From: Onthophagus taurus
Lineage: Eukaryota > Arthropoda > Insecta > Coleoptera > Scarabaeidae
Reading direction: 5' to 3'
Length of the DNA stretch: 64,000 nt
Assembly (NCBI RefSeq): GCF_036711975.1
Contig: NC_091971.1
Coordinates: 25,737,501 to 25,801,500 of the forward strand
Translations under genes and position numbers: made by a program
The notes under the pieces: model-generated
Told to the model about the DNA's origin: nothing
The model's database searches: none
What the model saw: the letters and a program-made list of their open reading frames with translations, nothing else
Shown: piece by piece, positions 10,854 through 43,264 of the stretch
Layout: every line of letters begins with the position of its first letter
How positions within the stretch are numbered: the first letter of the stretch is position 1

Positions 10854-10889
<36 letters not shown>

Positions 10890-24863: not shown

Positions 24864-24876
24864 AGTAGTAGATAAA

Positions 24877-25258: not shown

Positions 25259-25307
25259 GCAGATAGAAAATCGTGTTCAACAGTATTGAAGTAAGAGTGT
25301 TGTGAAC

Positions 25308-29140: not shown

Positions 29141-29241
29141 TTAAATTGCGATCAGTTAATTTGTAAAAAAAAAAAAATACTTGCTTGTATCACAAAACTT
29201 GTATATAAAGTAGAAAGTAGGTTGTTAAAAAGGTTACTTGA

Positions 29242-29247
29242 AATAAA
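29242..29247 (+). terminator. Poly(A) signal for polB
   Basis: AATAAA lies about 100 nt after the polB stop, just before an A-rich run. It lies within 40 nt of the opposing signal of the leftward genes, so the two transcript sets converge tail to tail. Confidence 0.6.
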
Positions 29248-29273
29248 ATCAACGAAATTAAAAAAAAAAGTTT

Positions 29274-29279
29274 TTTATT
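29274..29279 (-). terminator. Poly(A) signal for the integrase transcript
   Basis: TTTATT on the plus strand reads AATAAA on the minus strand, 16 nt after the integrase stop. Confidence 0.55.
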
Positions 29280-29294
29280 TTCTTAGTGTAAAAA

Positions 29295-30230
29295 TTATAA
29301 TACATCCTTTTTTGCAATCCAAGAATTATGAGAGCTATCCATTCCCAACCATTTCACTCGGACTTTATTTCCTTTTCGACGAAGAACTTTTTCAATTAAA
29401 AATACATCCGGGTGTTTCACACGTTGTAATTCTTCGTCGTAAAATGCTCCAAGAATGGGTTCTCCTCTACCATCTTTAATAAGGTAAGTCCTGGGATTAG
29501 TATTTTGAACTGTCGCTATGGTGAAAATTTCATTGGACCAAGTTGGTTGGTAACCTTTAGCAAAAGCGTGTCTGTACTTGCTAATTCGCACGTGTTCCCC
29601 CACATTAAATTTATGGTGGTTGGGGTCGACAACTTTAATGGAATTGTATACAGTATTTAACAGAGCAGATTCATTTCGTCGATTAACAGCTGAAGGTTTC
29701 ATGTGAATGGTGCGATGTATTGTGTTGTTGTAAGATTTTAGTAATTTGGGTAGTAAGTCTAACCAGCGATAATTTCCTTGCATACTAAATTCTTTCCACA
29801 TTTTATTTTTTAGGGTTCTATTAAACCGTTCGATAATCGAGCTTTTTAAAGTGGAATAGGTGCTGTAATGATTAATGTTAAGTTGTTCCATTAATTTTTG
29901 AAAATCGCTATTGTAAAACTCTTTCCCATTATCGGTTTGTAAGTTGCTCGGAGTAATATTCTTTTTACTATGCAAAATGTCCTTCATAGCTTGAGTAACC
30001 TCTTTCCCAGTTTTGGTTTTGAGTGGTAAGGCCCATGCGTATTTTGAAAAAGCGTTGATAACAGTCAGTATATACTTGTAACCTTTATTGACCGACGCAT
30101 ATGGGATCATTTCAACCAAATCAGCTTGATAAAGATCCAATAGTCCGTGAAGCAGAACGCGGCGTCGCCGATAATGTCGTCTCGCAGGTGCATGTAGTTC
30201 GTTAACGAGATCTCGCTTAACACTAACCAT
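29295..30230 (-). CDS. INT: DDE integrase with C-terminal chromodomain
   Basis: Retroviral-type integrase (311 aa) that inserts the element and generates the 6-bp target duplication. The N-terminal segment has the NELHAPARR and DLYQADLVEM blocks usual for Polinton integrases; the catalytic triad is D (QADLVEM, about residue 37), D (LQTDNGKEF, about 119) and E (IIERFNRTLKN, about 154). After an SH3-like stretch (PNHHKFNVGEHVRISK) comes a chromodomain (about 262-311: FLIEKVLRRKGNKVRVKWLG), which may steer integration to histone-marked chromatin; location in a satellite array fits heterochromatin preference but does not prove it. Its ATG overlaps the stop of the preceding gene by one base (TAATG). 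Confidence 0.95.
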   Translation of the reverse strand: MVSVKRDLVNELHAPARRHYRRRRVLLHGLLDLYQADLVEMIPYASVNKGYKYILTVINAFSKYAWALPLKTKTGKEVTQAMKDILHSKKNITPSNLQTDNGKEFYNSDFQKLMEQLNINHYSTYSTLKSSIIERFNRTLKNKMWKEFSMQGNYRWLDLLPKLLKSYNNTIHRTIHMKPSAVNRRNESALLNTVYNSIKVVDPNHHKFNVGEHVRISKYRHAFAKGYQPTWSNEIFTIATVQNTNPRTYLIKDGRGEPILGAFYDEELQRVKHPDVFLIEKVLRRKGNKVRVKWLGMDSSHNSWIAKKDVL

Positions 30231-30637
30231 TACTCTACAACCCCTTCAATCAACAACTCTACAAGAAAAGGTAGTCCTCCTATCGGTGCATTATTTTTAC
30301 ACTTAATGGTATCTCCGCGTTTGAGTTGAACTCCCTGGAGCGACTTAATAACGATATCGTTAACAAGTAACTGAACATGAGCGGACTTTACAACATCTTT
30401 TATCATACCTTCGTAGAAAGAATTGATGTAATCCGTAATTCCACTTTTGTTTGTGATTTTATAAAGTTTTGTTTTTGGATCAACATCTCCATCACCACGT
30501 AAAGTTAAAATAAATGTTGATGAAGGTTGTAGAACTTCGGATCTTGCTATGTGGTTCTGTATAACATGGTGGTGAACATGCTTACCAAATTTATCGATAG
30601 ATGTAGAACCATGTTCACCAAAACGGTTTAAAGGCAT
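30230..30637 (-). CDS. Conserved Polinton protein, 135 aa, unknown function
   Basis: Not recognised as a named family. It starts with MPLNRFGEHGS, then has a His-rich turn (KHVHHHVIQNH), a beta-rich middle (FILTLRGDGDVD, TKLYKITNK) and a hydrophobic C-terminus. No signal peptide or membrane segment is evident. It sits between the 386-aa gene (46 bp upstream) and integrase, and its stop codon shares a base with the integrase ATG, so the two are probably translated from one mRNA by reinitiation or come from alternative transcripts. A structural or virion role is possible; nothing in the sequence fixes one. Confidence 0.75.
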   Translation of the reverse strand: MPLNRFGEHGSTSIDKFGKHVHHHVIQNHIARSEVLQPSSTFILTLRGDGDVDPKTKLYKITNKSGITDYINSFYEGMIKDVVKSAHVQLLVNDIVIKSLQGVQLKRGDTIKCKNNAPIGGLPFLVELLIEGVVE

Positions 30638-30683
30638 ATTGGCTTCTGAAGCGTCACAGAAACAGAAAAAAGTTTATATACCC

Positions 30684-31844
30684 TTAACGAATGACTTGCG
30701 CTTCCCGTAATTCCTCTATGAGGGATATAATTTCGTTATGATGAGCAGTATGACCTGCTGCTTCGGAAGCAAGTAGTAAACGCAACCGATCAACTAATTC
30801 GTTCACGTCGTCCCAGTATTCGTACTCTTTAATTGCAGCAGGTACTAACAACTTATTTAAGTGACCTGATCCAGTTTTAGGTTTTGGCCAATATCGAGCC
30901 CAGTACACATTTGGTCTTTGACCCAAGGAAATTGGTTTGATTATGTTCACAAACTTTTCATTTTCATCATCAGTTATGATACTTTTTGAAGCGTCATAAT
31001 CTCTTTTATGTACATTCGAACGTTGTAAGATATCTTTGTAATTTCTCGCATCTGGTAAAGTAAATTTACCCGGTTTATTTTTGAATAACAACTCGTATAA
31101 CCCCGGTGTTCCTGTATAAGTAAATTCACCCACCAAAATGTTTTTCCCGTCAAACGTTATTGGTTGATTTGCGATATACAATCCATCGGTAAGTGCACGA
31201 ACACCGTAAGTTTGATCGAACTCGTTATTTACATCTACTGTTAAACCCGTAACATAGGTACGTGGTAAGGGGTCCAGCTGCCCTAAAGCTTCTCTAATAA
31301 CTGTCTGTTCCATCATTCCCTCCATATTCTCTTTCATGCGCGCCAACTGCTCCCTAGCGTCCCGCTCGTAGACATCTAAAGATGTGTCTGACTCACGAAC
31401 AGAAAACTCAGGTGTAGTATCTCGACCCTCGAACACCTCTTCGTCGCTGAGAAATTGCGGACTCCGTGCGAGTTCCGGTGAAACATCCATGCTAGCTCCC
31501 GGTTTAATGGGTGTTGACGTAACTCTACGTTTAGGTTTCACTCTAGGAGTTTCCAGTTTAAGTCCTTTAGAAGGTTTCTGCAAGTCAGCCAGTAAGGCTG
31601 AGATATCTGGTGACTGCTCCTTTTTCGGGGTAAATAAATCACGTTTTATCCCGAATTTATTGTCGAGCGCTAATAAATTGACAGTTTGTAATTTTTTGGA
31701 AATATCTGTCAGAGGTTCTTTCAGTGGAGCGAGTTGAGCTTCGGCAATGGACTGCTTCTGTTTTATATCTCCTTTCAAAGTGCGTATTTTATGTTTAACA
31801 TCTTCTCGCGCAGCTATTAACTGTTGTGCAACATTACGATTCAT
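30684..31844 (-). CDS. Conserved Polinton protein, 386 aa, unknown function
   Basis: Residues 1-60 are charged and heptad-like (coiled coil likely); about 90-160 are low-complexity with Ser/Pro/Thr and acidic runs; about 195-386 form the conserved part, with GTPGLYELLFKNKPG, a YKDILQRSNVHKRDY stretch, EYEYWDDVNELVDRLRLLL and the C-terminal HNEIISLIEELREAQVIR. From general knowledge, proteins with this C-terminal block recur in insect and other Polintons next to the ATPase and integrase, but their function is not established. It is separated by 63 bp from the ATPase gene upstream. It could be a virion or replication accessory protein. ATG at 31844 is the first in frame. Confidence 0.85.
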   Translation of the reverse strand: MNRNVAQQLIAAREDVKHKIRTLKGDIKQKQSIAEAQLAPLKEPLTDISKKLQTVNLLALDNKFGIKRDLFTPKKEQSPDISALLADLQKPSKGLKLETPRVKPKRRVTSTPIKPGASMDVSPELARSPQFLSDEEVFEGRDTTPEFSVRESDTSLDVYERDAREQLARMKENMEGMMEQTVIREALGQLDPLPRTYVTGLTVDVNNEFDQTYGVRALTDGLYIANQPITFDGKNILVGEFTYTGTPGLYELLFKNKPGKFTLPDARNYKDILQRSNVHKRDYDASKSIITDDENEKFVNIIKPISLGQRPNVYWARYWPKPKTGSGHLNKLLVPAAIKEYEYWDDVNELVDRLRLLLASEAAGHTAHHNEIISLIEELREAQVIR

Positions 31845-31907
31845 AGTTCAACGTGATAGTGTAATGATCGCACAGAGACTGAGCATGCAGTCGTAAAGTC
31901 AATGGTT

Positions 31908-32609
31908 TTACAGTATAATGTACTCATCGAAACCTTTCCGATAGCGTCCGTTATTTTTATCGCAATCTAAATCAATAACTAATATACCGTGCGGTGTATC
32001 CCAACAAGTTCGACAAATTCTGACAAAATCATCCCACGTAATGTCCCCTAGCAAATGATCGTTGTAAATATGTTTCAAGTTAGTGAGATCTTGTTTAAAT
32101 AAAACTAAAAGGTTGCAATTGTCACGTAAAAGCTGCTTGGAAATGGCGCTATAACTTTGAGCGAGTAAAAAAGTATCAACGTTTCTATGACGACCGTATG
32201 AAAAATATTCCTTGATAATCTGTTGCTCTGTAGGAGCAATATCATCAAAAATAATAATTGAATATTCTTTCACCTTTGACGGTGGTAGAAATCGTCCGAC
32301 ATCTGAGTATTCATAATAGCCGCAAGAGCGGATAGGTTTAAGTAATTGTCGTAGAAATTCGTATTTGATTTGGTAGAGTGAATTAGAGCACAAATATACA
32401 TTCAAAAAGCGCAACCCGTTGAGAGCTGTCAATAAAGTTAACATTACGTTTGTTTTTCCGGCACCCGAAGAACCAATTATCAAACCACGTTTACATTCCC
32501 CACCAAATAATTCGCTATGTCGTTTAAATTTATTTGCAGCGAAGTCGTTATGAAGATTACAGATTGGTAGTGTTAAAGGTTGGCTAACAAACTTAACGTC
32601 TTCAACCAT
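31908..32609 (-). CDS. ATPase: Genome-packaging ATPase, FtsK/HerA (A32-like)
   Basis: P-loop ATPase of 233 aa that would pump the DNA genome into capsids. Walker A is GSSGAGKT (residues 46-53); Walker B is IIIFDDI (Asp122-Asp123); LLAQSY near residue 155 fits the downstream polar motif of the HerA/A32 clade. Length and architecture are normal for Polintons. The ATG at 32609 gives the expected short N-terminus before the P-loop. It is in a leftward run with the 386-aa, 135-aa and integrase genes, and follows a 633-bp non-coding gap, which probably holds its promoter. Confidence 0.94.
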   Translation of the reverse strand: MVEDVKFVSQPLTLPICNLHNDFAANKFKRHSELFGGECKRGLIIGSSGAGKTNVMLTLLTALNGLRFLNVYLCSNSLYQIKYEFLRQLLKPIRSCGYYEYSDVGRFLPPSKVKEYSIIIFDDIAPTEQQIIKEYFSYGRHRNVDTFLLAQSYSAISKQLLRDNCNLLVLFKQDLTNLKHIYNDHLLGDITWDDFVRICRTCWDTPHGILVIDLDCDKNNGRYRKGFDEYIIL

Positions 32610-33242
32610 GTTGACGGGTGATACTTGAACGGGAGATTAACAAGAAATGAAGTCGTAGTAGAAAACAATGTTTATTTTATCATAAAATGTAGCATACAAA
32701 AAATTTCAGCAGATTATTTATTATCATTGTTTCAAAATAATGGTTTACAACACTAAACTGTTAACATTGAGTTTGAAAGTTATTTAAAGCGTGCGTAATA
32801 TTACACAATATTTATTTTACAATAAGACGTGGTATACATAAATTTACAAAATTATTTATTATCATGATTTCAAAAGTATCTGTATGGTTGATGTAGTAGA
32901 ACCACCAGTGGGTTATTCACATACAGATGTTATGTGATTAAACAAAATAAAGCAGTGTAAGTCACAGTACAATTTACACTACTTAGTATTAAATTAACAA
33001 TAAGTAGATACGGTAAATATTCAAATAAGTAATTAATAATACATATTAACAAAAGCATGGGAGCGGTAACAATAAGTAGATACGGTAAATATTCAAATAA
33101 ATAATTAATAATACATATAAACAAAAGCATGGGAGCGGAAAAGGTGAAAAGGAAGCGAACTTGTTGTCATATCATCAATTCGAACGATTTTCAGTATCAT
33201 ACAAGGATGGTGTACAAATTTGAAAAAACCACCTACAACATA
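32610..33242. other. Non-coding AT-rich gap with repeats
   Basis: No credible gene. A diverged ~140-bp repeat is visible (about 32,665-32,745 resembling 32,805-32,885, both with TTATTTATTATCAT), and a 72-bp tandem pair lies at 32,995-33,138. Minus-strand AATAAA signals occur in both diverged copies and could end the transcript of the Cys-rich gene to the right. Confidence 0.6.
32995..33138. repeat. 72-bp tandem repeat, two copies
   Basis: The unit begins TAACAATAAGTAGATACGGT and ends AAAGCATGGGAGCGG; copies 32,995-33,066 and 33,067-33,138 differ at only a few bases. Possible regulatory or replication-related repeat; function unknown. Confidence 0.85.
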
Positions 33243-33826
33243 TTAGTTGCTGAGACATCCCTCCGACAATTCCTCAGTACTTTGATCCTCCTCAAGTTGT
33301 GGTTTAAAACAGACTCGAAACAAAGACACACGACAACACATCGCACACCAATATTTTTTATTTAAAATAATAGTCTGCAATCGTTCAGAAGATGCATACT
33401 TTATTTTCGAGCGCAATTTCACACGACAATCCAGTTGTAAAACGTTCGTTATACTAATATGGTGTAGGCGGCGTCGACAACGATAGCAAAGGTTGCCCAA
33501 ATGTGATTCATAAAAAACATACCTTGCTTGATACTGAAGACCCACTCCGAAAGTTGAACTCCAATCAACCAGAGAACCGTGGAACAACTTATGTACGGTG
33601 CCTTGCGACATTTTCTTTCCAAAGCGTTCCACGGTGGGGAAGCAAACCTCCCCAAGATTGATTCGATCGCCCTTTCGGGATATTCGACGCCAGAAGCATA
33701 TGTCCCAGCTGTACATTACGTTTAGTAGTAGAGTCTTTGGTAAAACATCTACTAACCGCAACGTACAGTCTTTACGGGAAATCGTCGAATTAACGCTCTC
33801 CATAGCCAACTCCTGCAACGTTAACA
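33243..33826 (-). CDS. Cys-rich protein, unknown function; probably 5' spliced
   Basis: Not recognised. The first ATG is at 33803 (190 aa minus a few residues), but a strong minus-strand 3' splice site (pyrimidine-rich tract then TTGCAG, AG at 33827-33828) lies just upstream in the same open frame, so the N-terminus may come from an upstream exon I cannot place. The N-terminal third has a leucine-patterned helix-like stretch (LTLQELAMESV ... LPKTLLLNVM); the C-terminal half has CYRC and CAMCC pairs and further Cys spaced as in a zinc-binding module. The protein ends with an acidic tail (EEDQSTEELSEG). A host-interaction role is possible for a fast-evolving gene here, but this is speculation. 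Confidence 0.6.
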
Positions 33827-33871
33827 CTGCAAGAGACAAAAAAACTGAACGAGCTTCAAAAAAAAACGCTA

Positions 33872-35029
33872 TTAACCGTTGTCAGGCAGCAGCCTGAGAA
33901 GGGACTTATACAGGTTAATTTTGGTGTTGTACATGTTAAGGATGTTTGAAGAAGCAGCAAAGCAGACGGTGGGATTCTGGTTTACTGCATTCAACGCGTT
34001 CACGAAGTGGCGCTTATGATGTTCCAAAGTCGTCACTTTGGTTTGCAATTGAGGTTTCAAGCCCAAGATGAAAAAATCCTCTTGGGACAAAAGACTGCTT
34101 GCCAAGTTGGTTGTTGAATGCAGAAACGCATCAACCCATGGGTCGGGATGTGCGGTATTTACAGCTGGAAGATTTTGCCTCTGCGGGATAGTAGGGATAG
34201 GTAAAGGTGGTGGGAACACCACATTTTGTGGTGGGATAGTTGTGATAGTTGGCGGGCTGTCACGGATGTCGATGGTCACCTCTGGTGGAGATGTAACCAC
34301 CGTTGCAGGTCTGGTTACTGTAGCGAGTGTAGGTACTCTTCGTGTGTTACGGGGAGGTTTGGCTAATGCGTTGCGCAGCAATCTACAGGAGTCTTGTGAA
34401 GCAGGAGAAGGGTTTGGGCGGGTAGTTTGTTTCACGCAACCCCTTGACAACAAGTTGACGCGTTTTTTTATACGGCGGGATGTGTACCGTATGGGTCCAC
34501 TCGAGAAGACAGGCGAAACACATATCCTATCGGAGGGTTGGGATACGTCTTCCGTCGCTGGTACAGACGGTGCCGCAAGCACCTGGTTTTCAGCAGGTGC
34601 TTGACTTGTGACATCCGTATGTACAATATCTGGAAGTGGTTGTACCACGTCGGCCTGATTGGTAGCAGGTTCAGGTGGCACAACAACTTCCTGATATGTT
34701 CCTTCTTCTCGTATCTCCATACTGATGCGAGTTAAGCCGTAGGACGACAAGGTTGGACTGGTGGTAACAATCGCACCATTGTCGTTCCCTGGCTGTGACC
34801 GGAGCTCATTCATTATTTGCTCGTACAGTGGTGGGTCTGTAGTGAAATCCTGCATGGTACGACTCAAACCGTCAAAGTTGCCGCTGCAATATAATGGTAA
34901 CGACGGTAGGCTTGACTCAACAACATTCGTACTGTCGTTATTGCGTGGCAGCACGGCAACCAGTGGGTCGGTCATACCATCGGTATTATCGCTTGCACGA
35001 GCGTGGCTGTTACCAATTAAGTGAAGCAT
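33872..35029 (-). CDS. Low-complexity Pro/Ser/Thr-rich protein, 385 aa, unknown function
   Basis: Not recognised. The central part (about residues 90-290) is rich in Pro, Val and Thr, with runs such as VVVPPEPATNQADVV and PPPLPIPTIPQRQNLPAV, and a short basic segment (YTSRRIKKRVNLL, about 185). The C-terminal 90 residues look folded (LLSQEDFFILGLKPQL, TLEHHKRHFVNALNAVNQN, FAASSNILNMYNTKINLYKSLLRLLP). No signal peptide or membrane span is seen. The disordered-linker-plus-folded-end design could suit a virion spike, tegument or scaffold protein; this is inference. It lies 45 bp upstream of the Cys-rich ORF on the same strand. Confidence 0.7.
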   Translation of the reverse strand: MLHLIGNSHARASDNTDGMTDPLVAVLPRNNDSTNVVESSLPSLPLYCSGNFDGLSRTMQDFTTDPPLYEQIMNELRSQPGNDNGAIVTTSPTLSSYGLTRISMEIREEGTYQEVVVPPEPATNQADVVQPLPDIVHTDVTSQAPAENQVLAAPSVPATEDVSQPSDRICVSPVFSSGPIRYTSRRIKKRVNLLSRGCVKQTTRPNPSPASQDSCRLLRNALAKPPRNTRRVPTLATVTRPATVVTSPPEVTIDIRDSPPTITTIPPQNVVFPPPLPIPTIPQRQNLPAVNTAHPDPWVDAFLHSTTNLASSLLSQEDFFILGLKPQLQTKVTTLEHHKRHFVNALNAVNQNPTVCFAASSNILNMYNTKINLYKSLLRLLPDNG

Positions 35030-35075
35030 AATGGGAAAGACTTCAAGGAATCAAAAGGGTTACAAAAAATTTGGA

Positions 35076-35429
35076 TTATTTTATTAAAATTATACGTTCG
35101 CTCACGTCTGACAAGTTTGCAATCCGCTGAAGAACCACTTTTCTCAGCGTATAACAATTAATGTCTGAAATCATCACAAACATACATGAAGAAAACCGAT
35201 AAAAATTGTATTGATGTAACTTACTTTTCAAATGGTTTTCTATCACGTCTGACAGGTTTGCAATGCGCTGAAGAACCACTTTTCTCAGCGTATAACAATT
35301 AATACCTGAAATCATCACAAACATACATGAAGAAAACCGATAAAAATTGTATTGATGTAACTTACTTTTCAAATGGTTTTCTAGCAGAAGGCGATTTCTT
35401 CGTGGTCGGAAAAACACAGTTTTTAACAA
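35076..35429 (-). pseudogene. Candidate small spliced gene or gene fragment with duplicated mini-exon
   Basis: The minus strand stays open for 117 codons but has no early ATG. Inside are two 60-nt candidate introns, 35306-35365 and 35165-35224, each with donor GTAAGT and acceptor TTTCAG. The 81-nt exon between them (35225-35305) and the terminal exon both read INCYTLRKVVLQRIANLSDV. An AATAAA follows the stop at about 35,080. The two copies come from a 141-bp tandem duplication. It may be the upstream exons of a neighbouring leftward gene, or a remnant. Function unknown. Confidence 0.35.
35102..35383. repeat. 141-bp tandem duplication, two copies
   Basis: Copies 35,102-35,242 and 35,243-35,383 begin TCACGTCTGACA and differ at few positions. 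The length is a multiple of three, so the reading frame is kept. Each unit spans an exon-intron-exon boundary of the candidate small gene. Confidence 0.9.
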
Positions 35430-35580
35430 AATCTGTTATTATTGTAAACACACTTTTTAAGGAATTATCGTCTTTTGTACACTACTATATCACTCAGCGA
35501 CTGCTGTACACGGAGTGAGGAGTAACCCACTTTCCACTACCTTTAAGTACGGGTTAGTGAACAGGTATTTGTCCGGTCAA

Positions 35581-35770
35581 CTGTCTGGGAATGCGAGGTC
35601 GTTTAGGTCTTCTCCTTGTTATCGCCTGTGACTGAAGGGGAGGTCATACTGTCTGGGAATGCGAGGTTGTCCAGGTTTTCTCCTTGTTATCGCCTGTGGC
35701 CCAAGGGGAGGTCATACTGTCTGAGAATGCGAGGTCGTTCGGACCTTATCTTCGCCCGTGACTCAAGGGG
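35581..35770. repeat. 68-bp tandem repeats, three copies
   Basis: Units start CTGTCTGGGAATGCGAGGT at 35,581, 35,649 and 35,717 (the third diverged). They carry TTATCGCCTGTG and AAGGGGAGGTCATA, and end in a G-rich run at 35,767-35,790. The base composition differs from the AT-rich neighbours. No gene is seen from 35,430 to 35,842. Confidence 0.88.
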
Positions 35771-35842
35771 GGGGGGAGGGGGAAGGGGAGGTGAAGAGGT
35801 TTCTTTAAATAAAACTCATCAATATGGATAAAAAAATAACAT

Positions 35843-36178
35843 TTATTTCTTTTCTAACGTACATTTAATACAATGCATTTTAGGTGGTGGTGGTCCATCG
35901 AAATGAGTTTCCGCACAATCATTATTATAATGTTCAAGACACGGTAACTTCATTTGTAACATTTTCGATTGCTGGTAGGCGAACGGTAGTTGGGTCCAAA
36001 TTCTTCGTAATTCCATAGATGGTACTTTATCGAAATAATACTGTGTTGGTAAATATTTTAAATCACGAGCTGGAATGTTCGCAAATGAGGCATCTTGTTC
36101 ATATTTTTTCATTACGCTGTACACTTTCTTGGCAGATGTAAGTGGCCAACACCCAAACACAGTGAACACTTGTTCCAT
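35843..36178 (-). CDS. Small protein, 111 aa, unknown function
   Basis: Not recognised. It starts at ATG 36178. It has a mixed helical N-terminal half (SAKKVYSVMKKYEQD), a middle segment with LPTQYYFDKVPSMELRRIW, and a C-terminal part with paired Cys/His (CLEHYNNDC, CAETH, MHCIKC) that could bind zinc. It follows the next gene to the right by 50 bp on the same strand. A minus-strand AATAAA lies beside the stop at about 35,836-35,841. Confidence 0.6.
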   Translation of the reverse strand: MEQVFTVFGCWPLTSAKKVYSVMKKYEQDASFANIPARDLKYLPTQYYFDKVPSMELRRIWTQLPFAYQQSKMLQMKLPCLEHYNNDCAETHFDGPPPPKMHCIKCTLEKK

Positions 36179-36228
36179 CGCAACCAGCTCTTAACTATCC
36201 CCCATTACGACTTGTCTCTGCTTTATAG

Positions 36229-36744
36229 TCACCGACTGTCTTTCGCATCCTTGTTTTGCACCCCCTCTTCGACAACTTCTTGTAAGTGGCGTACATTGGA
36301 AAGAGCGCACATACTTCTTCGTCGCGAGTGAAAAGCACAGCTCGGTATACCCATCTCAAGTTTATAGATACTACCTTCCAACGCAAATATCGGCGCGGAA
36401 ATAATATGTCTTAAAAATTTAATTTTTTCAGGTCCTTTAACATACACTTTCTTGACATTCCGACACAGATATTTGACTATGGCGTCGAATTCCATTGGAT
36501 GGATAAAACCAACTTTCCAGTCGATGCAATGATGATGTGTCATTAACCAGTTTGCAGTATTCCTATATTTAGATGGTAATGAAGCTATACTGCTACTCGG
36601 TTGAAAAACGTGGTGGGTTATGCATTTGTTACTATCACATGATGCTAATTCTTTAGGTACGAACTGATCTTCGTTGACCATGAAACCTTGTATATCGAGA
36701 ATTATGTATTGAGTTTTATTTGAATACATCTTGCTTCCGTACAT
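36229..36744 (-). CDS. Polinton accessory protein, paralogue of the gene at 42273-42755
   Basis: Not a family I can name. It shares with the gene next to the right TIR the pattern [IL]DxQGF near the N-terminus, a PKELA or VKELA block, HHVFQP or SHFIFQP, a WL/HH segment, the VYVKGPEK or VFVKGSQKEK block followed by a conserved LE, and the C-terminal CAxH...CAxxNV. Asp, Glu and His/Asn in this order are reminiscent of RNase H-like nuclease folds, but the usual DxE signature is DxQ here, so this is only a hint. GTG at 36750 is not a likely start; ATG at 36744 or 36729 would be used. Confidence 0.7.
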   Translation of the reverse strand: MYGSKMYSNKTQYIILDIQGFMVNEDQFVPKELASCDSNKCITHHVFQPSSSIASLPSKYRNTANWLMTHHHCIDWKVGFIHPMEFDAIVKYLCRNVKKVYVKGPEKIKFLRHIISAPIFALEGSIYKLEMGIPSCAFHSRRRSMCALSNVRHLQEVVEEGVQNKDAKDSR

Positions 36745-36919
36745 CAACACGATTATCCATACTATGCAGCCGTAGAAATCTGTCGCACAACTTATACTCT
36801 ACGACTTTTTTTTGTTTACGCTGAATATAGAAGTCTCACATTTCGGATGATGAGCTACGGGTGCGATGCGGCTCAGGATCCGATCCAACTACACACTACC
36901 AACCCTTCTTTCCCCATAC

Positions 36920-38182
36920 TCAAGTCATTTGTTTGACGATTTTTGTTAGTGGAGAATATTGAAACGCCTTATCATGTAAAACTAAACAGTATGCTGTGGT
37001 ACCATCAGGAATCGGATTTTTTGTCGTAAATTCTATCCGTATTTCTACCCCACTTTTGTGTAGCGCTTCTGCTTGATATGTACAATCAATTCCAATCAGT
37101 GGATAATTTTCAATAAATTGTTTCGGAGTGAGTAATGGTTCTCCTTCCTTCCCATAGTAGGACTTTTGAAAGCGTGTATACATGTCATATAACACTGCGA
37201 CACGATTACTATCAAAGTCCACGTTCAGATTATCGTATGGGTAGCGTTCACCGTTTAGGAATACCGTCAAATTGGTGAGTTTTACATTATCAAAGGTTGC
37301 CATGTTCGCCAACTGTTTTCCTTTCTTCTTTGTTTGAAACCCAATTATTATAAATCTAGGTGTTTCCAACTGCGGAGCTGTTTTCACAGCCCATGAATGC
37401 TTTGTTGTTTGAGGTAAAGAAGGATATTCATGTACTTCCCAACTGCGAAAAGGTATTTGCAGATCAATATTTCGTCCTGCTATTTTTGTTAGAGCTAATT
37501 GTTCTCGTAAGCCTACGGCTAGATGGGGCATTCTCCACACAACTTTATCGATTTTTAACTGTAACGGTTCTTCTACCGTATTCACAAGCACATCATTATC
37601 ATCATTATTACGAATTAACACTAGCTCTTGTCTCACATTCATCACAATTGTTTTAAAATCTTCAGCAAACCCTATTAATGTCTTTAGCGGTACACTCAAT
37701 CCAAAATTTCCATTTTTATCCATTATTGCATCCGTTACAGGGGATGTTGGGACCACTTGACCTAGCAGATCCTCGCCCATGTTCCAACCTGCGTTCGCCA
37801 ACTTTATTATATCGTGAGGGGTATACGAAAAGTATCCTTTCATACATGATGTTAACCCCACGTTTCTCACTCCATCTATTTGAACACCATTTATAAGATA
37901 GCGAATATCACTGAACATAAACGCTACAGGATTATTTATCAATTTTGCAGTTGCACTAGCATCTTTTGTTGCTTTACCACTCGCATCCAGTTTACGTACG
38001 CTCCCTTCCACATACAAAAAACTTTCATGAGGCAATGTGTAATTGTCTATTTCGGGTATGCCTATACGAATTTCATCATTGTTACCGAAGCTAGTAGAAC
38101 CAAACGGTTGATGGGAATGATATTCGTAACTTACAATCGAGTTATCTACTTTTATTTTCTCCGTGACGTTTAAGGACTCCAT
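36920..38182 (-). CDS. MCP: Major capsid protein, double jelly-roll
   Basis: 420 aa, the hexon-like capsid protein of adintovirus-type Polintons. Conserved stretches I recognise include FGNNDEIRIGIPEID near residue 33, NNPVAFMFSDIRYLINGVQID (about 85-105), the GYFSYTPHD segment, a VWRMPHL strand (about 220), the FRSWEVHEYPSLP turn (about 250), PRFIIIGFQTKKKG and YPLIGIDCTYQAEALHKSGV toward the C-terminus. These strands fit two tandem jelly-roll barrels that form pseudo-hexameric capsomers. The frame is complete, with no stop or frameshift. ATG at 38182 follows directly after the TAA of the small basic gene, in a close leftward series with the minor capsid protein and protease. Confidence 0.93.
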   Translation of the reverse strand: MESLNVTEKIKVDNSIVSYEYHSHQPFGSTSFGNNDEIRIGIPEIDNYTLPHESFLYVEGSVRKLDASGKATKDASATAKLINNPVAFMFSDIRYLINGVQIDGVRNVGLTSCMKGYFSYTPHDIIKLANAGWNMGEDLLGQVVPTSPVTDAIMDKNGNFGLSVPLKTLIGFAEDFKTIVMNVRQELVLIRNNDDNDVLVNTVEEPLQLKIDKVVWRMPHLAVGLREQLALTKIAGRNIDLQIPFRSWEVHEYPSLPQTTKHSWAVKTAPQLETPRFIIIGFQTKKKGKQLANMATFDNVKLTNLTVFLNGERYPYDNLNVDFDSNRVAVLYDMYTRFQKSYYGKEGEPLLTPKQFIENYPLIGIDCTYQAEALHKSGVEIRIEFTTKNPIPDGTTAYCLVLHDKAFQYSPLTKIVKQMT

Positions 38183-38353
38183 TTATAGTAGTTGAAAACC
38201 TAAGTTGCTTAAATACTGACGATTGACGCGTGTTAACTGGGTAGTTGATTTTCGCTTACTGTTAGGTTTTACATCCTTTCGTACCGTTTTATACATTACT
38301 CTATCACCCAGATTTTCCTGTGCTTTTCTTCGAACGTCGTACACTATACCCAT
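38183..38353 (-). CDS. Small basic protein between capsid genes, 56 aa
   Basis: From ATG 38353 the product begins MGIVYDVRRKAQ, is rich in Arg and Lys, and ends with RQYLSNLGFQLL; the basic centre (RKDVKPNSKRKST) suits DNA or capsid binding. Its start lies 17 nt after the minor capsid stop and its TAA abuts the ATG of the major capsid gene, which supports it as a genuine gene rather than a chance frame. Function is not known; a minor virion or core protein is plausible. Confidence 0.65.
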   Translation of the reverse strand: MGIVYDVRRKAQENLGDRVMYKTVRKDVKPNSKRKSTTQLTRVNRQYLSNLGFQLL

Positions 38354-38370
38354 ATTAAATACCCTACTAC

Positions 38371-39114
38371 TCACACCGATTTCAAGTGCACTCTCACGGT
38401 CACTTCTTCGTCTCTGAAGTTTACCAACTGACCGTCCTGATCAAGTATGCGTACTATTAATGTACTAATCACGTTCGTTGTAACAGGTAAGTAAATCGGT
38501 TGTTGCGGAGCTTCTATTATTTTAAAACCAGCCGGTACGTTCGGGAAGAAATGATACAACACGTGCATGGGTTGTCCATTCGTATACGATCCGGAGCTCA
38601 AATTACAATAAATTTGTAATGCATTCGTTTTATTTATATTCACGATATGATCCGATTCTGTTATCGTGTTTTTAGGTATAACTTTAGGGTTAAAACCAAG
38701 TAAGGAACCGATTGAATTATCGCTAGCAAAATTTATTCGCCGGTTTGTTTTTATCTCAGCACGTTGCGTATTATTGTTACCTCTTATGCGTATCTGTGTA
38801 CCCGGTGTAGTCACGCTGAGAATATTCCTCGCTGTTAATGTTTTTTTAACGTATTCGTTAATATCGTTAATATCGTATGTTCCTAGCGGTATTTCAATAT
38901 TCTCTGTAAAATTTCCCATATGATCTTCATATTGTAAAATATTGTTTGTTGAATCGATATTAGGTAACGTATTGAACGTTTCGAAATTTAAAAGAGCTAA
39001 CTCGTATGTACCGAGTTCATTCAAATAAATCGGTGGGTTAAAGTTACAAGACAACTCCGACCCCCTTCCGGTGAGCGTAAATGTATAACTTGTATGTATT
39101 GTATCTTGTTCCAT
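38371..39114 (-). CDS. mCP: Minor capsid protein, single jelly-roll (penton-like)
   Basis: 247 aa from ATG 39114 (the open frame begins slightly upstream without ATG). Recognised segments are HTSYTFTLTGRGSELSCNF at the start, PPIYLNELGTYELALLNFET, NIEIPLGTYDINDINEYVKK, INFASDNSIGSLLGFNP and the C-terminal STLIVRILDQDGQLVNF followed by EEVTVRVHLKSV. This is the usual set of the Polinton penton-type protein that closes capsid vertices. It is complete. It follows the protease stop by about 20 nt and precedes the small basic and major capsid genes. Confidence 0.92.
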   Translation of the reverse strand: MEQDTIHTSYTFTLTGRGSELSCNFNPPIYLNELGTYELALLNFETFNTLPNIDSTNNILQYEDHMGNFTENIEIPLGTYDINDINEYVKKTLTARNILSVTTPGTQIRIRGNNNTQRAEIKTNRRINFASDNSIGSLLGFNPKVIPKNTITESDHIVNINKTNALQIYCNLSSGSYTNGQPMHVLYHFFPNVPAGFKIIEAPQQPIYLPVTTNVISTLIVRILDQDGQLVNFRDEEVTVRVHLKSV

Positions 39115-39134
39115 TGTTGTTCTCAAGACTAATC

Positions 39135-39527
39135 TTACACGGATACTTCCTTGGTATTTAAACTATCTAAGAAATGCAGACACAATTGTCCACAATTTGT
39201 TTGATCTTCTTTTTGATATCGTCGATAATTATACCTCACAATATTTCTCCCCCCATCCGATATAAAATACTTCTCCACTTCAATCGGTGGTCGTAAATCT
39301 CCATAACTGTCAAAGTAGTTAACATTTACACCATCCTTGTTGTAAGCTGTCCAGTGAGTACCGGGACCCGTACGATTATCAAGATTTATTATCCCACTCT
39401 CTCGTTTTCGGATTTTCTTCGGTAAATTGTTTCTCATGTACACCCCACGAAAGTTTAACAGATCAAGCGCTCGTGCATATCGCCTTAACTCTACATCCGT
39501 TAAAGAATGTTGGGGTATTTTTATTAG
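39135..39527 (-). CDS. PRO: Adenain-like cysteine protease, probably reached by -1 frameshift
   Basis: Maturation protease of the C5/adenain type. The catalytic residues are all present: His in GTHWTAY, Asp in FDSYG, the oxyanion Gln seven residues before Cys in YQKEDQTNCGQLC. The first in-frame ATG is 39437, giving about 100 aa, but the conserved adenain N-terminal helix and strand (LTDVELRRYARAL, then FRGVYMR) are encoded upstream of that ATG with no start codon. The open frame runs back into the 3' end of the PLA2-protein gene in its -1 frame, meeting AAAAAAC directly before that gene's stop. The likely product is therefore a C-terminal extension of the PLA2 protein, with the -1 frame supplying 130 aa. 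A non-AUG start or splicing are alternatives. Confidence 0.85.
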   Translation of the reverse strand, partial: LIKIPQHSLTDVELRRYARALDLLNFRGVYMRNNLPKKIRKRESGIINLDNRTGPGTHWTAYNKDGVNVNYFDSYGDLRPPIEVEKYFISDGGRNIVRYNYRRYQKEDQTNCGQLCLHFLDSLNTKEVSV

Positions 39528-40426
39528 TTTTTTGCTACAGTTTTATAACCACAACCCTTTTTATATGGATTAATAAACATTCCTGTACCAATTTTGTTCG
39601 CCCTCTTGGGGCGTTTTAGTCGCTTTGATTTTCGTGATACCGTTTTCATGACTAGTCCGCAACCTTGCTTATATGGTTTAATATACAAACCGCTGCCGAT
39701 CGCTTTTGGTTCCATAGCCCGATTGTGACGTTGGGCTTCTTGTAACTGCTCCCTTGCTATTTTTGCTTCGTTTACGGTTTTTGCAATAGCTGCTGCACCT
39801 CCGCCTAAAGAACCGAGAGCACCCAAAGCTGCAAGTATTAAGGGTAAAAAACCTCCCGTCTTGGGAATCTTGATTATTTTTCCGCGCGGTTTAAGTATTC
39901 TACCTTGATAAGGTTTCAACAGATTGTAACCCACTTGTACATCTCCCTTTGTATTCGTACTGTTGGTCTGTGCAATCGCTCGCCGCACTAAGTTCATTGC
40001 CTGCGTAAACGACAACTTACCGCCACGTTTCAACTTCTGACGAGTTGTCCCTCTACGTCTTAGGGCACGAATTTGCATTCCCATACCCATTATTGTTTTT
40101 CCTTTCATTATCGTTGACACTAACGCCGACGATAGTCGCTCTCCTAAGCTTGCGTCTTTACTTCTCAACCGCTCTTTCGCCGTCTTATACAACTCTTTAT
40201 CGGCTATGTGTCGCTCAGCTAAATTCGATGTCGCTGCGTAGGCAATATCATGCGTTTTACAGGCGTCGTCTAATTTATTCACTCCCCGATCTCCACGAAC
40301 TAATCTCTTTACCAATTTGGTTCCCGGACCGCAATAATTATAACCTGGCAAATGTAGTTCTATCGGAAGCTTATTGATTAATGTATTCACAATACCTCGA
40401 CCAGACCGTTTGCTTGATCGATGCAT
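39524..40426 (-). CDS. Phospholipase A2-domain virion core protein
   Basis: 300 aa. Residues 29-63 hold the secreted/parvoviral PLA2 core: calcium loop YCGPGT (31-36) and catalytic pair in DDACKTHDIAY (His59-Asp60). In parvoviruses such a domain breaches endosomal membranes during entry, and related core proteins occur in adintoviruses. The middle is basic (RALRRRGTTRQKLKRGG), then comes a hydrophobic Gly/Ala/Leu segment (GGFLPLILAALGALGSLGGG, about 190-210) that may insert in membranes, and two copies of a C-terminal motif (GSGLYIKPYKQGCG and GTGMFINPYKKGCG). GG-containing sites such as KTGG-F resemble adenain cleavage sites. It ends in a candidate frameshift into the protease. Confidence 0.88.
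   Translation of the reverse strand: MHRSSKRSGRGIVNTLINKLPIELHLPGYNYCGPGTKLVKRLVRGDRGVNKLDDACKTHDIAYAATSNLAERHIADKELYKTAKERLRSKDASLGERLSSALVSTIMKGKTIMGMGMQIRALRRRGTTRQKLKRGGKLSFTQAMNLVRRAIAQTNSTNTKGDVQVGYNLLKPYQGRILKPRGKIIKIPKTGGFLPLILAALGALGSLGGGAAAIAKTVNEAKIAREQLQEAQRHNRAMEPKAIGSGLYIKPYKQGCGLVMKTVSRKSKRLKRPKRANKIGTGMFINPYKKGCGYKTVAKN
39527..39533 (-). promoter_or_regulatory. Candidate -1 ribosomal frameshift site A AAA AAC
   Basis: On the minus strand the heptamer is in the zero frame of the PLA2 gene as A-AAA-AAC and is followed at once by TAA. A slip of one base back continues as CTA ATA and enters the protease frame. About 11 nt downstream, ACCCCA can pair with TGGGGT roughly 60 nt further on, enclosing a 7-bp hairpin (CTTTAAC/GTTAAGG). 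A AAA AAC is among the most efficient eukaryotic slippery sites known. Confidence 0.65.
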
Positions 40427-40454
40427 ACTGTTTCACTGTCCTAACATTCATACC

Positions 40455-40467
40455 ATTATATTTAATA
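40455..40467 (-). promoter_or_regulatory. TATA-like element upstream of the PLA2 gene
   Basis: The minus strand reads TATTAAATATAAT about 30-40 nt upstream of the ATG, implying a very short leader and a promoter for the capsid and protease gene run. Confidence 0.4.
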
Positions 40468-40540
40468 GCTTTCGCACATTATTCGGTGAATATTGGATGG
40501 TTAATAATACGCTCACATTTGAAAAAAAATTTTATTTATT

Positions 40541-40765
40541 TTAAGTCATTACATATTTAAATCTTTCATGAAAAATCTTATTTCTAAATTCGCTGCTTAA
40601 GTACAGGTGTAACATATCATTTACATAACTTATTCTATTCTTAAATCTAAGACGATCTAAATACATTTCCTCCCAATTACACTTTCGTGATTGTCTATAC
40701 GCATAAGTCCATGCATACATTCTATGCATCTCATTTTTACTCTCATCAATCCGCACCTTACCCAT
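40541..40765 (-). CDS. Small protein, 74 aa, unknown function
   Basis: Not recognised. It is rich in Arg, Tyr and Met and likely helical (HRMYAWTYAYRQSRKCNWEE, then LDRLRFKNRISYVNDML). Its ATG lies 4 nt after the stop of the 299-aa gene, so the two are probably on one mRNA. A minus-strand AATAAA run follows its stop at about 40,528-40,540, making it the last gene of that transcript. Size, position and lack of homology leave its role open. Confidence 0.6.
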   Translation of the reverse strand: MGKVRIDESKNEMHRMYAWTYAYRQSRKCNWEEMYLDRLRFKNRISYVNDMLHLYLSSEFRNKIFHERFKYVMT

Positions 40766-40769
40766 GTCT

Positions 40770-41668
40770 TTATTGATTGTGAAATAATTTAAACAAATCT
40801 ACATCCAACAAGATTTTATCGAAATTGTACAACATCACTTCCTTACTTATACATATTTGTTCAGAACACGATTCATTGAGCATCGTTAACATATTACGTT
40901 TCACATCTCCATCCATTGCAGCTAACGCGTTTATAACACTATCATAATATGCTTTGTAATTCACAGTTCTCAATAATTTCAGTCGAGTTGCTACTAAATC
41001 TGCTACGTTCCAAAGCTCATGCAACGATTCATATGCAATATATACATATTCTCCACCCCTCTCCAACTTTAAAATCTTGCAAACGTTTTCCATCCAATCG
41101 CACGATATACTGACACCACACAACACTATCTGCGACGGAGACTGATTAGCAAAACTGTTTGTGATTGTTGACTTATACATAATAATGTTGTGCCAATCGT
41201 TTTCCGTTAATGTTAAACATTGACCTTTTCCCATTAACCTTACCACTGGTTCAAAATGTAAGTCAGCACTTAATCCTATTGCCACACATTTCGTGCGGCT
41301 CTTATTTAGTGCATACACTGTTTCCGAAAATAGAGGACCTCTACTTGCTCTTACTGTACTGTCCGACATGTTGGTTAAGCTCTCCATGTTATCTATTCTC
41401 GAAACTACTTCATTATTACCGTTAACACTTTGCGTCATAATAAAAGGGCTTAAGTCTGCAAACGAATCTTTTCCATCAGCGACCGCTTGCATATTGTTAC
41501 CACACTCTATAACTGTATTAAACTTTTCTTGTTTTAACACCTCTTCAGATGCCACGGGTGTCAACGAGGGTTTTATCACCTTTGGACTTATGCTCGCTTT
41601 TTTGGACACCGCCTGTTGAACCTCGAGACTTCTCTTCGGTGCTTTTGTATATTGTTGTCTGGAACCCA
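40770..41668 (-). CDS. Unknown protein, 299 aa, start codon made by splicing
   Basis: Not recognised. The open frame has no ATG before residue 60. A 55-nt intron (41669-41723) would join a final A of an upstream exon to TG at 41668, creating ATG followed by GGT in a strong context. The N-terminal 60 residues are basic and Pro/Ser-rich (QYTKAPKRSLEVQQAVSKK); the rest looks globular (KCVAIGLSADLHFEPVVRLMG, DWHNIIMYKSTI, IVLCGVSISCDWMENVCKIL, helices to the C-terminus LLDVDLFKLFHNQ). No membrane span or catalytic motif is visible. It is followed after 4 nt by the 74-aa gene. Confidence 0.7.
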
Positions 41669-41723
41669 CTAAGTATATATAACATTAATACTTCTGCTGT
41701 AAGACAAGTGTTTATGGACTTAC
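41669..41723 (-). other. 55-nt leader intron generating an ATG
   Basis: Minus-strand donor GTAAGT (GT at 41722-41723) and acceptor ACTTAG (AG at 41669-41670). The upstream exon ends GAACAA and the downstream exon begins TGGGTTCC, so the junction reads ACAATGG, a good initiation context, in frame with the 299-aa protein. Confidence 0.65.
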
Positions 41724-41795
41724 TTGTTCTGCGTTGTTATGTCACCACTACGTCGGATGATTTCAATGAAACTAATCTTTTATGAACCTGACTTG

Positions 41796-41804
41796 CTATT
41801 TATG
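41796..41804 (-). promoter_or_regulatory. TATA-like element of the 299-aa gene
   Basis: The minus strand reads CATAAATAG about 70-80 nt before the leader intron donor; a transcript start near 41,770 would give a short ATG-free first exon ending at 41,724. Confidence 0.4.
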
Positions 41805-41829
41805 CACATCATTTTAGGTGGGGACGTCA

Positions 41830-41958
41830 CGGTCACAATTAAGGTTGACTTCAAGTTCTCCGTTGAGGTCAAAGTAAAGGTCATTGTTCAGGTCAAGGTT
41901 ACTGATCAATGTCATAGTCACTCAACGTGATCTTGACCTGAGGTGAGCTCAAAGTAAA
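41830..41958 (-). repeat. Internal fragment of the TIR
   Basis: About 129 bp from GGTCACAATTAAGG to CTCAAAGTAAA match 42,954-43,081 of the right TIR in the same orientation, with several substitutions, so it is older than the TIR pair. The stretch 41,959-42,272 that follows holds no gene; it is AT-rich toward the right, with a GC-rich start (CTCCGGGAGCACCCGAG). Confidence 0.85.
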
Positions 41959-42272
41959 TCCAACCCGGTCATGCTCCACTCCTCCGGGAGCACCCGAGAA
42001 GAGTCATCACTCGACTTGAGTACACCAAAAAAAAACATCATGAACTGCTAACTCGGGGGCGTCGAGTTGACACCATAAATAATACGTTAAAAAGATATGC
42101 AATTGTTTATCATTTATTAAAGACGAGTTCAATAAATTAAATGAAATTTAATTCGGTTGTTTTTCTTTTCCATTTTATATATTAGGATTAGGAATGTGAT
42201 ACATTTAAATTGAATAAAAAAAAAAAAGTCAGTACAATAAAAATTAATTTATTTAAATTTTAAATTTTAACA

Positions 42273-42755
42273 CTAATCTAAATCCATTTTTAAAAATTTT
42301 AAAATTAATTTAACATTTTCAATTGCACAACTGCTTTCCGATTTATAATGATATGCGCAAGAATTTTGACTCAACGAAAGCAAAGGGCAATATATATTAT
42401 CTTCTAAATTAATAATCACTGGCTTTACCGATGATAATAGGTCTCTCAATACCTTTTCTTTTTGAGATCCCTTTACAAACACCACCTCCACTCCGCATGT
42501 ATGCTGTTCCAGAATGTCTTTCAGTTGATTATAGGGCACATATCCATTCTCGTAATGCAAATGGTGTAAGTTATTCTCCTCCCAACGCACTTGTCGACAT
42601 TCTCGCTTATTGAGTCTTTCATAACTTATATCAGGTTGAAATATGAAATGGGAAATCGACTCACCATCACCGATAGCCAATTCTTTAACTCGAAATCCCG
42701 AAGATAAAGTAAACCCTTGCATATCGATGACTTTAATTGGATTTCTCGATGCCAT
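42273..42755 (-). CDS. Accessory protein next to right TIR, paralogue of the gene at 36229-36744
   Basis: 160 aa from ATG 42755, transcribed out of the right TIR promoter. It shares the IDMQGF, VKELA, SHFIFQP, VFVKGSQKEK, NLED and CAYH...CAIENV blocks with the gene beside the major capsid gene; identity is low, so the duplication is old or the copies came separately. Function not recognised; the conserved acidic and His/Asn positions only hint at a nuclease-like fold. It is boxed in by an internal TIR fragment and the TIR itself, as if the module had been added at the element's end. A minus-strand poly(A) signal (AATAAA in TTATTTAAATTT) lies at about 42,245-42,255. Confidence 0.75.
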   Translation of the reverse strand: MASRNPIKVIDMQGFTLSSGFRVKELAIGDGESISHFIFQPDISYERLNKRECRQVRWEENNLHHLHYENGYVPYNQLKDILEQHTCGVEVVFVKGSQKEKVLRDLLSSVKPVIINLEDNIYCPLLSLSQNSCAYHYKSESSCAIENVKLILKFLKMDLD

Positions 42756-42863
42756 TATATTTAAGCGATGTAAACTGCTTAAAATAGGAGCTACAAGTTC
42801 CTCAATTTCTTTATGTTCACAACACTCTTACTTCAATACTGTTGAACACGATTTTCTATCTGC

Positions 42864-42871
42864 TATTTAAA
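42864..42871 (-). promoter_or_regulatory. TATA-like element of the right TIR promoter
   Basis: TATTTAAA on the plus strand is the mirror copy of the element at 25251-25258 and lies about 110 nt upstream of the ATG at 42755. Confidence 0.5.
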
Positions 42872-43128
42872 GCATACCTCCTCCGAAGTGGGGTTTTCAA
42901 TGGCCTCACGTCGTGTAACCTTCATTTCAGGTCACGTACACGGTCAATGTCATGGTCACAATTAAGGTTGACTTCAAGGTCTCCGTTGAGGTCAAAGTAA
43001 AGGTCATTGTTCAGGTCAAGGTTACTGATCAAGGTCATGGTCACTAAACGTGATCTTGACCTGAGGTGAGCTCAAAGTAAAGGTCATTGTTTAGGTCAAG
43101 GTTACTGGTCAACGACCCCCTTTGCAAT

Positions 43129-43245
43129 AGCCGATTCTGGAACCTCCTCCCAGAACCTCAGGGCAAGGTCAAGGTCATGGTCACTCAACGTGACCTTGGC
43201 CTTGGCCTTGACCTGAGGTTCTGAGAGGAGGTTCTAGAATCGGCT
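43129..43245. repeat. Imperfect palindrome in right TIR
   Basis: Inverted copy of the 117-bp palindrome described for the left TIR, with AGCCGATTCTGG at one end and CTAGAATCGGCT at the other. Confidence 0.8.
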
Positions 43246-43258
43246 TTTATCTACTACT

Positions 43259-43264
43259 TGAACT
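43259..43264. repeat. Target-site duplication, right (TGAACT)
   Basis: Directly follows the element end TTTTATCTACTACT; same six bases as at 24858-24863. The satellite phase continues with TTCTATCACTTGTGG as in uninterrupted monomers. Confidence 0.96.

Follow-up and report, generated by a model that had tools for sequence, protein, structure and literature searches.

How is the protease of a Polinton translated if its reading frame overlaps the 3' end of the preceding gene and has no usable start of its own? The question is raised by a locus of the scarabaeid beetle Onthophagus taurus (assembly GCF_036711975.1), which we analysed in a window of 64,000 nucleotides (contig NC_091971.1, positions 25,737,501 to 25,801,500 of the forward strand). 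The window is this whole stretch, and coordinates refer to it unless a locus is named.

The core-protease junction of a complete Polinton

The window holds a complete Polinton/Maverick element, recognizable by its long terminal inverted repeats and 6-bp target-site duplication and by a gene set of integrase, packaging ATPase, double jelly-roll capsid protein, and protease. Apart from the junction itself, its features are:

24858..24863, plus strand: target-site duplication TGAACT (6 bp), left copy
24864..43258, no strand: complete Polinton/Maverick element, 18,395 bp, delimited by terminal inverted repeats and target-site duplication
24864..25309, plus strand: left terminal inverted repeat, 446 nt (self-complementarity)
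25871..29140, plus strand: 1089-aa ORF (Pfam: Endonuclease_7 alone, no polymerase family)
29295..30245, minus strand: retrovirus-type integrase (Pfam rve, E 2.9e-13)
31908..32636, minus strand: packaging ATPase (Pfam Pox_A32, E 1.8e-7)
36920..38182, minus strand: major capsid protein (Pfam DJR-like_dom, E 4.8e-105)
38371..39114, minus strand: putative penton/minor capsid gene, downstream of the protease (by position only, no Pfam match)
42813..43258, minus strand: right terminal inverted repeat, 446 nt (self-complementarity)
43259..43264, plus strand: target-site duplication TGAACT (6 bp), right copy

The two terminal inverted repeats are complementary at 99 per cent. From its length and position, we take the 1089-aa ORF to be the protein-primed DNA polymerase B. 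The terminus of the integrase has a weak Chromo match (E 0.0024, below the Pfam cut-off), and the putative penton gene begins at its own ATG past the protease stop. In a scan of the genome (290.8 Mb), 46 of the 150 scored protease matches attained the full score of the window's own protease at 100 per cent identity, from which it follows that this Polinton family spread recently. Long arrays of look-alike ORFs spaced by about 152 bases flank the element (at about 4700-23200 and 43300-52000 of the window, in the parts for which ORFs were listed), as if the element had landed in satellite DNA. Two minus-strand ORFs without Pfam match, at 36229-36798 and 42273-42827, appear by eye to be diverged relatives of each other (..DIQGF../..DMQGF..), and the latter shares 15 bases with the right terminal repeat. 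An 85-aa ORF (40544-40798, minus strand) weakly matches a PP1-binding region (E 8.6e-5, below the curated cut-off) and is possibly a host-factor mimic.

At the junction between the PLA2/core protein and the protease, the features are:

39524..40426, minus strand: PLA2/core protein ORF, 300 aa, with its TAA at 39526-39524 (Pfam Phospholip_A2_4, E 2.2e-14)
39527..39533, minus strand: slippery heptamer A AAA AAC, at the end of the PLA2/core ORF just before its stop
39135..39542, minus strand: adenain-like protease ORF, -1 frame, with the open stretch beginning at 39542 (ORF and fold)
39543..39545, minus strand: TAA closing the protease frame on its upstream side
39435..39437, minus strand: first ATG in the protease frame, residue 36 (RGVYM)

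The minus-strand PLA2/core ORF closes with GCA AAA AAC TAA, and the heptamer at 39533-39527 stands in the X XXY YYZ phase relative to the zero frame of that ORF, just before the stop, as the initial annotation had stated. Two further statements of that annotation are confirmed as well: the -1 frame is open through the protease, from 39542 to 39135, and the N-terminus of the protease contains no in-frame ATG. From stop to stop, the protease frame encodes 135 aa and would be entered after a slip at 39527. Its first ATG lies 3' of the conserved LTDVELRRYARAL segment and is preceded by an out-of-frame ATG-TAG. As would be expected at a frameshift site, the -1 ORF overlaps the core ORF and is devoid of a usable start of its own.

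Nine ORFs of the window (2476 codons) contain 17 slippery heptamers in frame, the junction heptamer included. In the window alone, the chance of finding one within the five usable codons is about 0.03, and the case for frameshifting is carried by conservation across relatives, not by this single site.

No Pfam family was recognized in the protease ORF at E 0.1. Its AlphaFold model (alignment of 77 sequences) has a mean pLDDT of 90.8 and is best matched in the PDB by adenovirus proteinase 1nln (Foldseek E 1.9e-6); all six top matches are adenovirus proteinases, with TM(query) of 0.66-0.70. A profile search retrieved both adenain (E 0.001) and the ASFV protease (E 0.0003). Residues H63, D78, Q110, and C117 are invariant among the 77 sequences, and these His, Asp/Glu, Gln, and Cys positions align with those of adenain (profile E 0.001); we take them to be the predicted active-site residues of an adenain-type enzyme. 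The features found are those of an adenain fold (C5-type cysteine protease), and the window protease is predicted to be an enzyme. In the model, helix 1 (residues 16-25) precedes the first ATG and strand 1 (residues 31-36) ends at it. Residues 16-36 align with the N-terminus of adenain, helix 1 from adenain residue 6 onward in the profile alignment. Because helix 1 and strand 1 precede or reach the ATG, a start at residue 36 would cut off part of the fold. A frameshift is probably the sole route to an intact protease.

Conservation of the slippery site

To the 50 + 20 loci of the beetle genome that we read, we added one virus contig from IMG/VR (L051), which gave 71 loci. One (L102) was dropped, having no protease ORF, and 70 were left (69 from the beetle genome and L051). 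An alignment of the junction across relatives, which the initial annotation had proposed as a check, bears its reading out: a heptamer recurs in the phase that links core protein to protease, as A AAA AAC in 51/70 loci and as T TTT TTA in 14/70. The former is found in all 30 loci of the window-like family A, in 11 of the 14 loci of family B (in which the core stop is TAG and the protease is 58 per cent identical to that of the window), in 8/8 loci of family D, in the relic locus L043, and in L051. The latter is characteristic of family C (14 of 15 loci). One family-B core protein is 100 per cent identical, over the aligned 67 per cent of the query, to a protein annotated in Onthophagus taurus (P0121). 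Five loci (L041, L042, L099, L100, and L091) have neither heptamer in phase; L042, L099, and L100 are broken, and L091 has a long A run of ambiguous phase. In the family-B locus L041 (L041:295-1431, minus strand), a small deletion at the junction joins core protein and protease in one frame, and the core ORF is broken further upstream. The relic L043 has a 19-bp inverted repeat within its protease gene, and a short insertion interrupts the segment after FRG.

Synonymous sites of the protease are saturated or nearly so between families A, B, and D (A-B, pS 0.86 and pN 0.27, dS not computable; A-D, pS 0.87, dS not computable; B-D, dS 2.59; pN between the three families 0.27-0.33), yet the heptamer is identical in all three. 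Its identity is therefore not due to recent ancestry, and the heptamer is kept beyond what the protein requires, as is expected of a frameshift site. Family-A copies are recent duplicates and some copies carry stops farther upstream in the core ORF, so it is lineages that count here, not copies.

In the two family-C copies for which ORFs were listed (L045 and L093), the PLA2 domain is absent from the gene overlapping the protease frame, and a PLA2 ORF lies elsewhere. This arrangement suggests that the PLA2 domain is dispensable for the fusion and that it is the core part, not the PLA2 enzyme, that stays linked to the protease. The detached PLA2 domain is a separate ORF on the other strand (L045:1-337, minus strand, and the same place in other family-C loci), and an ORF that is ATPase-like by eye lies between it and the core gene.

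The same constraint can be traced in proteins from other hosts. We considered 227 PLA2-type relatives among the matches listed, drawn from two lists by similarity to seeds from these elements and including the window's own protein (P0127). Both domains are in one frame in 46 of them, including relatives from Lucilia, Temnothorax, Trachymyrmex, Trichogramma, Exocentrus, and aphids; because the queries for the PLA2 lists were themselves one-frame fusions, 46/227 is not a frequency. Among the 181 listed PLA2-only proteins, 161 have tails that end in KN plus 0-2 residues (48, 67, and 46 tails with 0, 1, and 2 residues, respectively), compared to 219 of 9364 five-residue windows elsewhere; proteins with the KN ending come from, among other named hosts, Popillia, Anoplophora, Photinus, Stomoxys, and Haematobia. 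The residue before the terminal KN in the 161 listed tails is always S, P, K, T, Q, A, L, I, or R. Residues without an A-ending codon precede none of the 161 terminal KN pairs but 71 of 287 internal ones (Fisher P-value = 6e-16, in a test in which the relatives are not independent and 146 tails are distinct). As the residue before KN can always have an A-ending codon, the constraint is on the bases and not on the protein.

Ten of the 181 listed tails fit neither heptamer. In the first list, tails without KN contain xFL more often than those with KN (9/18 vs 7/97, P-value = 4e-5); a looser pattern in the larger set gave 10/20 vs 23/161 (P-value = 6e-4), and both patterns were picked after the data had been seen. 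In tails without KN, x-F-L often stands where other tails have L-Y-L and is compatible with T TTT TTA, the heptamer that family C shows in DNA.

Since two overlapping frames fix the underlying bases, protein sequences alone can reveal the junction. We compared 20 pairs of protease and PLA2 proteins whose longest contigs are equally long (one protease matched two partners). Six pairs allow a consistent overlap of at least 10 nt, each with exactly one fit; all six overlaps are in the -1 direction, span 34-46 nt, and force A AAA AAY one codon before the stop, although three of the six come from near-alike proteases that also fit one another's partners. The other 14 pairs overlap by at most 7 nt and are uninformative on the heptamer. 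In a control, 12/378 mismatched pairs fit over at least 30 nt, all of them among three near-alike proteases. Of 120 listed protease N-termini, 43 have KK followed by a compatible residue, 17 are longer and lack the KK pattern, and the other 60 begin 3' of the junction and carry no information on it. N-termini of the MVSKKLPIKLP type were considered as true starts and rejected, being compatible with A AAA AAC.

A few relatives may depart from this pattern. Three proteases (P0085, P0098, and P0104) have a common N-terminus, M(L)YS[ST]QVI, and the PLA2 protein paired with P0104 (P0236) lacks KN and allows no overlap of at least 10 nt. This small minority lineage may start at its own ATG. According to the initial annotation, frameshifting would be refuted by relatives in which the protease has a clear ATG and the slippery site is missing; this may hold for the minority lineage, which lowers the universality of the site and not the case in the window element. 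Among the relatives, there seem to be three arrangements of the two proteins: linked by slippage, permanently fused, or produced separately. The relatives are kin, selected by seeds, and include the window's P0127, so that their counts are not independent events.

Comparative evidence thus strongly supports the fusion of the PLA2/core protein to the protease that the initial annotation had proposed, and we consider it highly probable that a programmed -1 frameshift at the 3' end of the PLA2/core gene yields a minority core-protease fusion.

Downstream structure and other conceivable routes to the protease

Downstream of the heptamer, the window RNA is predicted to fold into two nested stems:

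39511..39518, minus strand: 5' arm of an 8-bp stem, starting 8 nt after the heptamer (RNA folding)
39440..39447, minus strand: 3' arm of the 8-bp stem (RNA folding)
39495..39504, minus strand: 5' arm of an inner 10-bp stem (RNA folding)
39454..39463, minus strand: 3' arm of the inner 10-bp stem (RNA folding)

The fold has a free energy of -28.7 kcal/mol (z = -3.82 relative to dinucleotide shuffles), with 0/200 shuffles as good and 1/200 in a repeat; three runs on family A gave z of -3.8, -3.8, and -3.1. In family B, an 8-bp stem occurs with the same 8-nt spacing, but the fold as a whole has a z of about 0, and no significant fold was found for families D and C and L051 (at most three distinct segments per family were folded). 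A stimulatory structure is likely in family A, and A AAA AAC with a nearby stop may need less structural help. The initial annotation had described a 6-bp stem about 11 nt downstream and had suggested folding this region: a stem is indeed there, and strong in family A, whereas its size and spacing are 8 bp and 8 nt, and the significance seen in family A does not extend to the segments from B, C, D, and L051. Covariation between the stems of families A and B was considered and rejected, as their 3' arms are 2 nt out of register. The chance of all eight stem pairs given the amino acids alone is 0.0026 in A and 0.076 in B; given the register shift and the partial complementarity that amino acids alone provide, we did not use these stems as covariation. 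A hairpin of L043 (z -8), 64 nt downstream, was also set aside as a local inverted repeat in a relic copy.

Could the same sequences be explained without ribosomal frameshifting? RNA polymerase might slip on the A6 (or T7) run and add one base to a fraction of the mRNAs, which would bring the fusion into frame. Every site read indeed has a run of at least six A or T, and some runs are longer (11 A in L051, and also L087). Such slippage needs no codon phase, yet the runs sit in the X XXY YYZ phase, and none of the 161 listed tails has a phase-forbidding residue before KN. The base that follows the run is C or A, as tandem tRNA slippage prefers, and an A6 run is short for transcriptional slippage. 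We regard this explanation as improbable. Nor would a conserved protein motif, with the -1 overlap a coincidence of compact gene packing, account for the KN ending. The C-terminal motif PYKxGxG of the core protein is itself conserved (175/181 listed), but a protein motif would neither bar Y, F, H, D, N, C, W, and M before KN (0/161 vs 71/287) nor tend to give way to a T TTT TTA-compatible xFL nearby, and we regard the coincidence as extremely improbable.

Removal of an intron could supply the protease with an ATG or an upstream reading frame. AG dinucleotides do occur just 5' of the heptamer in families A and B, and NCBI gene models of some relatives show fusions that are possibly spliced. Splicing leaves unexplained, however, both the in-phase heptamer of 51/70 loci and the codon constraint in 161/161 listed tails, and we take the sources of 24 of the 46 one-frame fusions to be intron-less gene calls. 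Moreover, the accessible portion of a study of vertebrate Mavericks describes the ORFs of intact elements as intronless (PMC8097293). We judge splicing to be very unlikely. Much the same holds for a protease made separately, by re-initiation after the PLA2 stop, leaky scanning, or a non-AUG start. The close overlap of the two frames would suit this route, as would the common N-terminus of P0085, P0098, and P0104, the lack of any overlap of at least 10 nt between P0104 and P0236, and the Met that precedes the FRG motif in 11 of the 14 family-C loci with a heptamer (ten in or adjoining the helix-1 segment and one in the linker). Against it, the first protease ATG of the window is residue 36, after helix 1 and at the end of strand 1, and follows an out-of-frame ATG-TAG; separate synthesis predicts no slippery heptamer, yet the heptamer is the conserved feature; and the PLA2 protein that pairs with the apparent ATG lineage has one of the tails without KN. 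Separate synthesis is therefore also assigned a very low probability, and programmed frameshifting is retained as the explanation of the junction.

A proposed frameshifted fusion and its known counterparts

The anatomy of the junction and the conservation of its nucleotides are read directly from sequences, and the course of events is proposed by analogy. Most ribosomes would stop at the TAA and release the 300-aa core protein. In a minority, both tRNAs would re-pair one base back on the A run of A AAA AAC, and translation would continue in the -1 frame to produce a fusion of the core protein to the adenain-like protease. In family A, the 8-bp and 10-bp stems 8 nt downstream probably stimulate the slip. 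The core protein is presumably packaged, and protease fused to it would enter the particle at a set ratio. We infer that ribosomes slip and that only a minority does so, and, from the analogy with retroviral Gag-Pro, that the purpose is to bring the protease inside the capsid by tethering it to a fixed minority of the core protein.

The initial annotation had further suggested that the C-terminus of the core protein, with its Cys, acts as a built-in cofactor of the protease, an idea that is not supported. A natural one-frame fusion, P0247, was modelled with AlphaFold from 35 sequences, a shallow alignment; its linker and the C-terminus of its core part are predicted to be disordered (block means of 35-43 over residues 231-270). 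The motif PYKxGxG is found in 175 of the 181 listed relatives, and its Cys position is occupied by Cys in 44 of these 175, with Y in 53, L in 32, M in 26, and F in 20.

In retroviruses, control of the amount of virion protease by frameshifting is textbook knowledge, and A AAA AAC is the gag-pro slippery site in several of them. The Polinton junction resembles retroviral gag-pro in its heptamers, its -1 direction, the minority protease appended to a structural protein, and, in family A, a stem a few nucleotides downstream. It differs in that the Polinton is a dsDNA virus-like transposon with an adenain-type cysteine protease rather than an aspartic one, a core protein replaces Gag, and the stop lies 0-2 codons past the heptamer in most listed relatives. 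Adenovirus adenain (1nln), which has the same fold and aligned active-site residues, is the product of a stand-alone gene and uses an 11-residue peptide cofactor. The Polinton protease ORF is shorter (135 aa), would be reached via a frame change alone, and in the modelled natural fusion follows a linker predicted to be disordered. The RNA form of the family-C heptamer, U UUU UUA, is the frameshift heptamer of HIV-1 in the available part of one source (PMC4373837).

In the open-licence literature, we found no prior description of a PLA2/core-protease frameshift site. The initial annotation's statement that no case is described in Polintons is roughly correct, with the qualification that a preprint, in its available part, raises hypothetical frameshifts in the adintovirus penton and 'Hexon-Adenain (Hexain)' genes (PMC11071296). 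These candidates belong to the same broad virus group and are predicted -1 sites, one of them with adenain; their partners are penton and hexon, and that part of the preprint words them as a possibility and presents no conservation analysis. Insect Mavericks have been reported to encode the same two genes, PRO and CAP/PLA2, with conserved protease catalytic and PLA2 residues; the portion of that report at hand gives them as separate ORFs and mentions no frameshift (PMC5803895). According to an excerpt of a review, frameshifting is known in relatively few eukaryotic DNA viruses (PMC8310308). The class of mechanism is known, and what appears to be new is that a DNA virus-like element uses it, in a conserved manner, to attach a virion protease to a core protein. 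If true, the conserved Polinton case would place a retroviral solution in an unrelated virus lineage, account for a protease gene that seems to have no start, point to a mistake that automated annotation commonly makes in such elements, and open one step in the assembly of Polinton virions to a simple reporter test.

A broader and more tentative idea, which we hold to be possible but rather doubtful, is that Polintons and Polinton-like viruses in general, from protists to insects, have long relied on Gag-Pro-like core-protease frameshifting. The strategy would have persisted through exchanges of the heptamer (A AAA AAC for T TTT TTA or the reverse) and would have been lost several times, either to in-frame fusion or to a protease with its own start; the stand-alone adenovirus protease with its diffusible cofactor would then be derived. 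Scans of IMG/VR yielded one distinct relative, the 19.4-kb protist Polinton-like virus contig L051 (L052 and L069 are the same contig); 29/30 pattern matches in IMG/VR were not recognized by a protease profile that itself included L051. In L051, too, the protease is encoded in the -1 frame; A AAA AAC falls within a run of 11 A, and no ATG precedes FRGVFM. As a single contig with a long A run that is prone to sequencing error, L051 is only suggestive as a distant instance of the junction. The gene upstream of its protease encodes a 213-aa protein with no significant Pfam match; this protein, the protease, and a packaging ATPase stand in a row (L051:1991-4130), with a DUF5679 ORF on the opposite strand.
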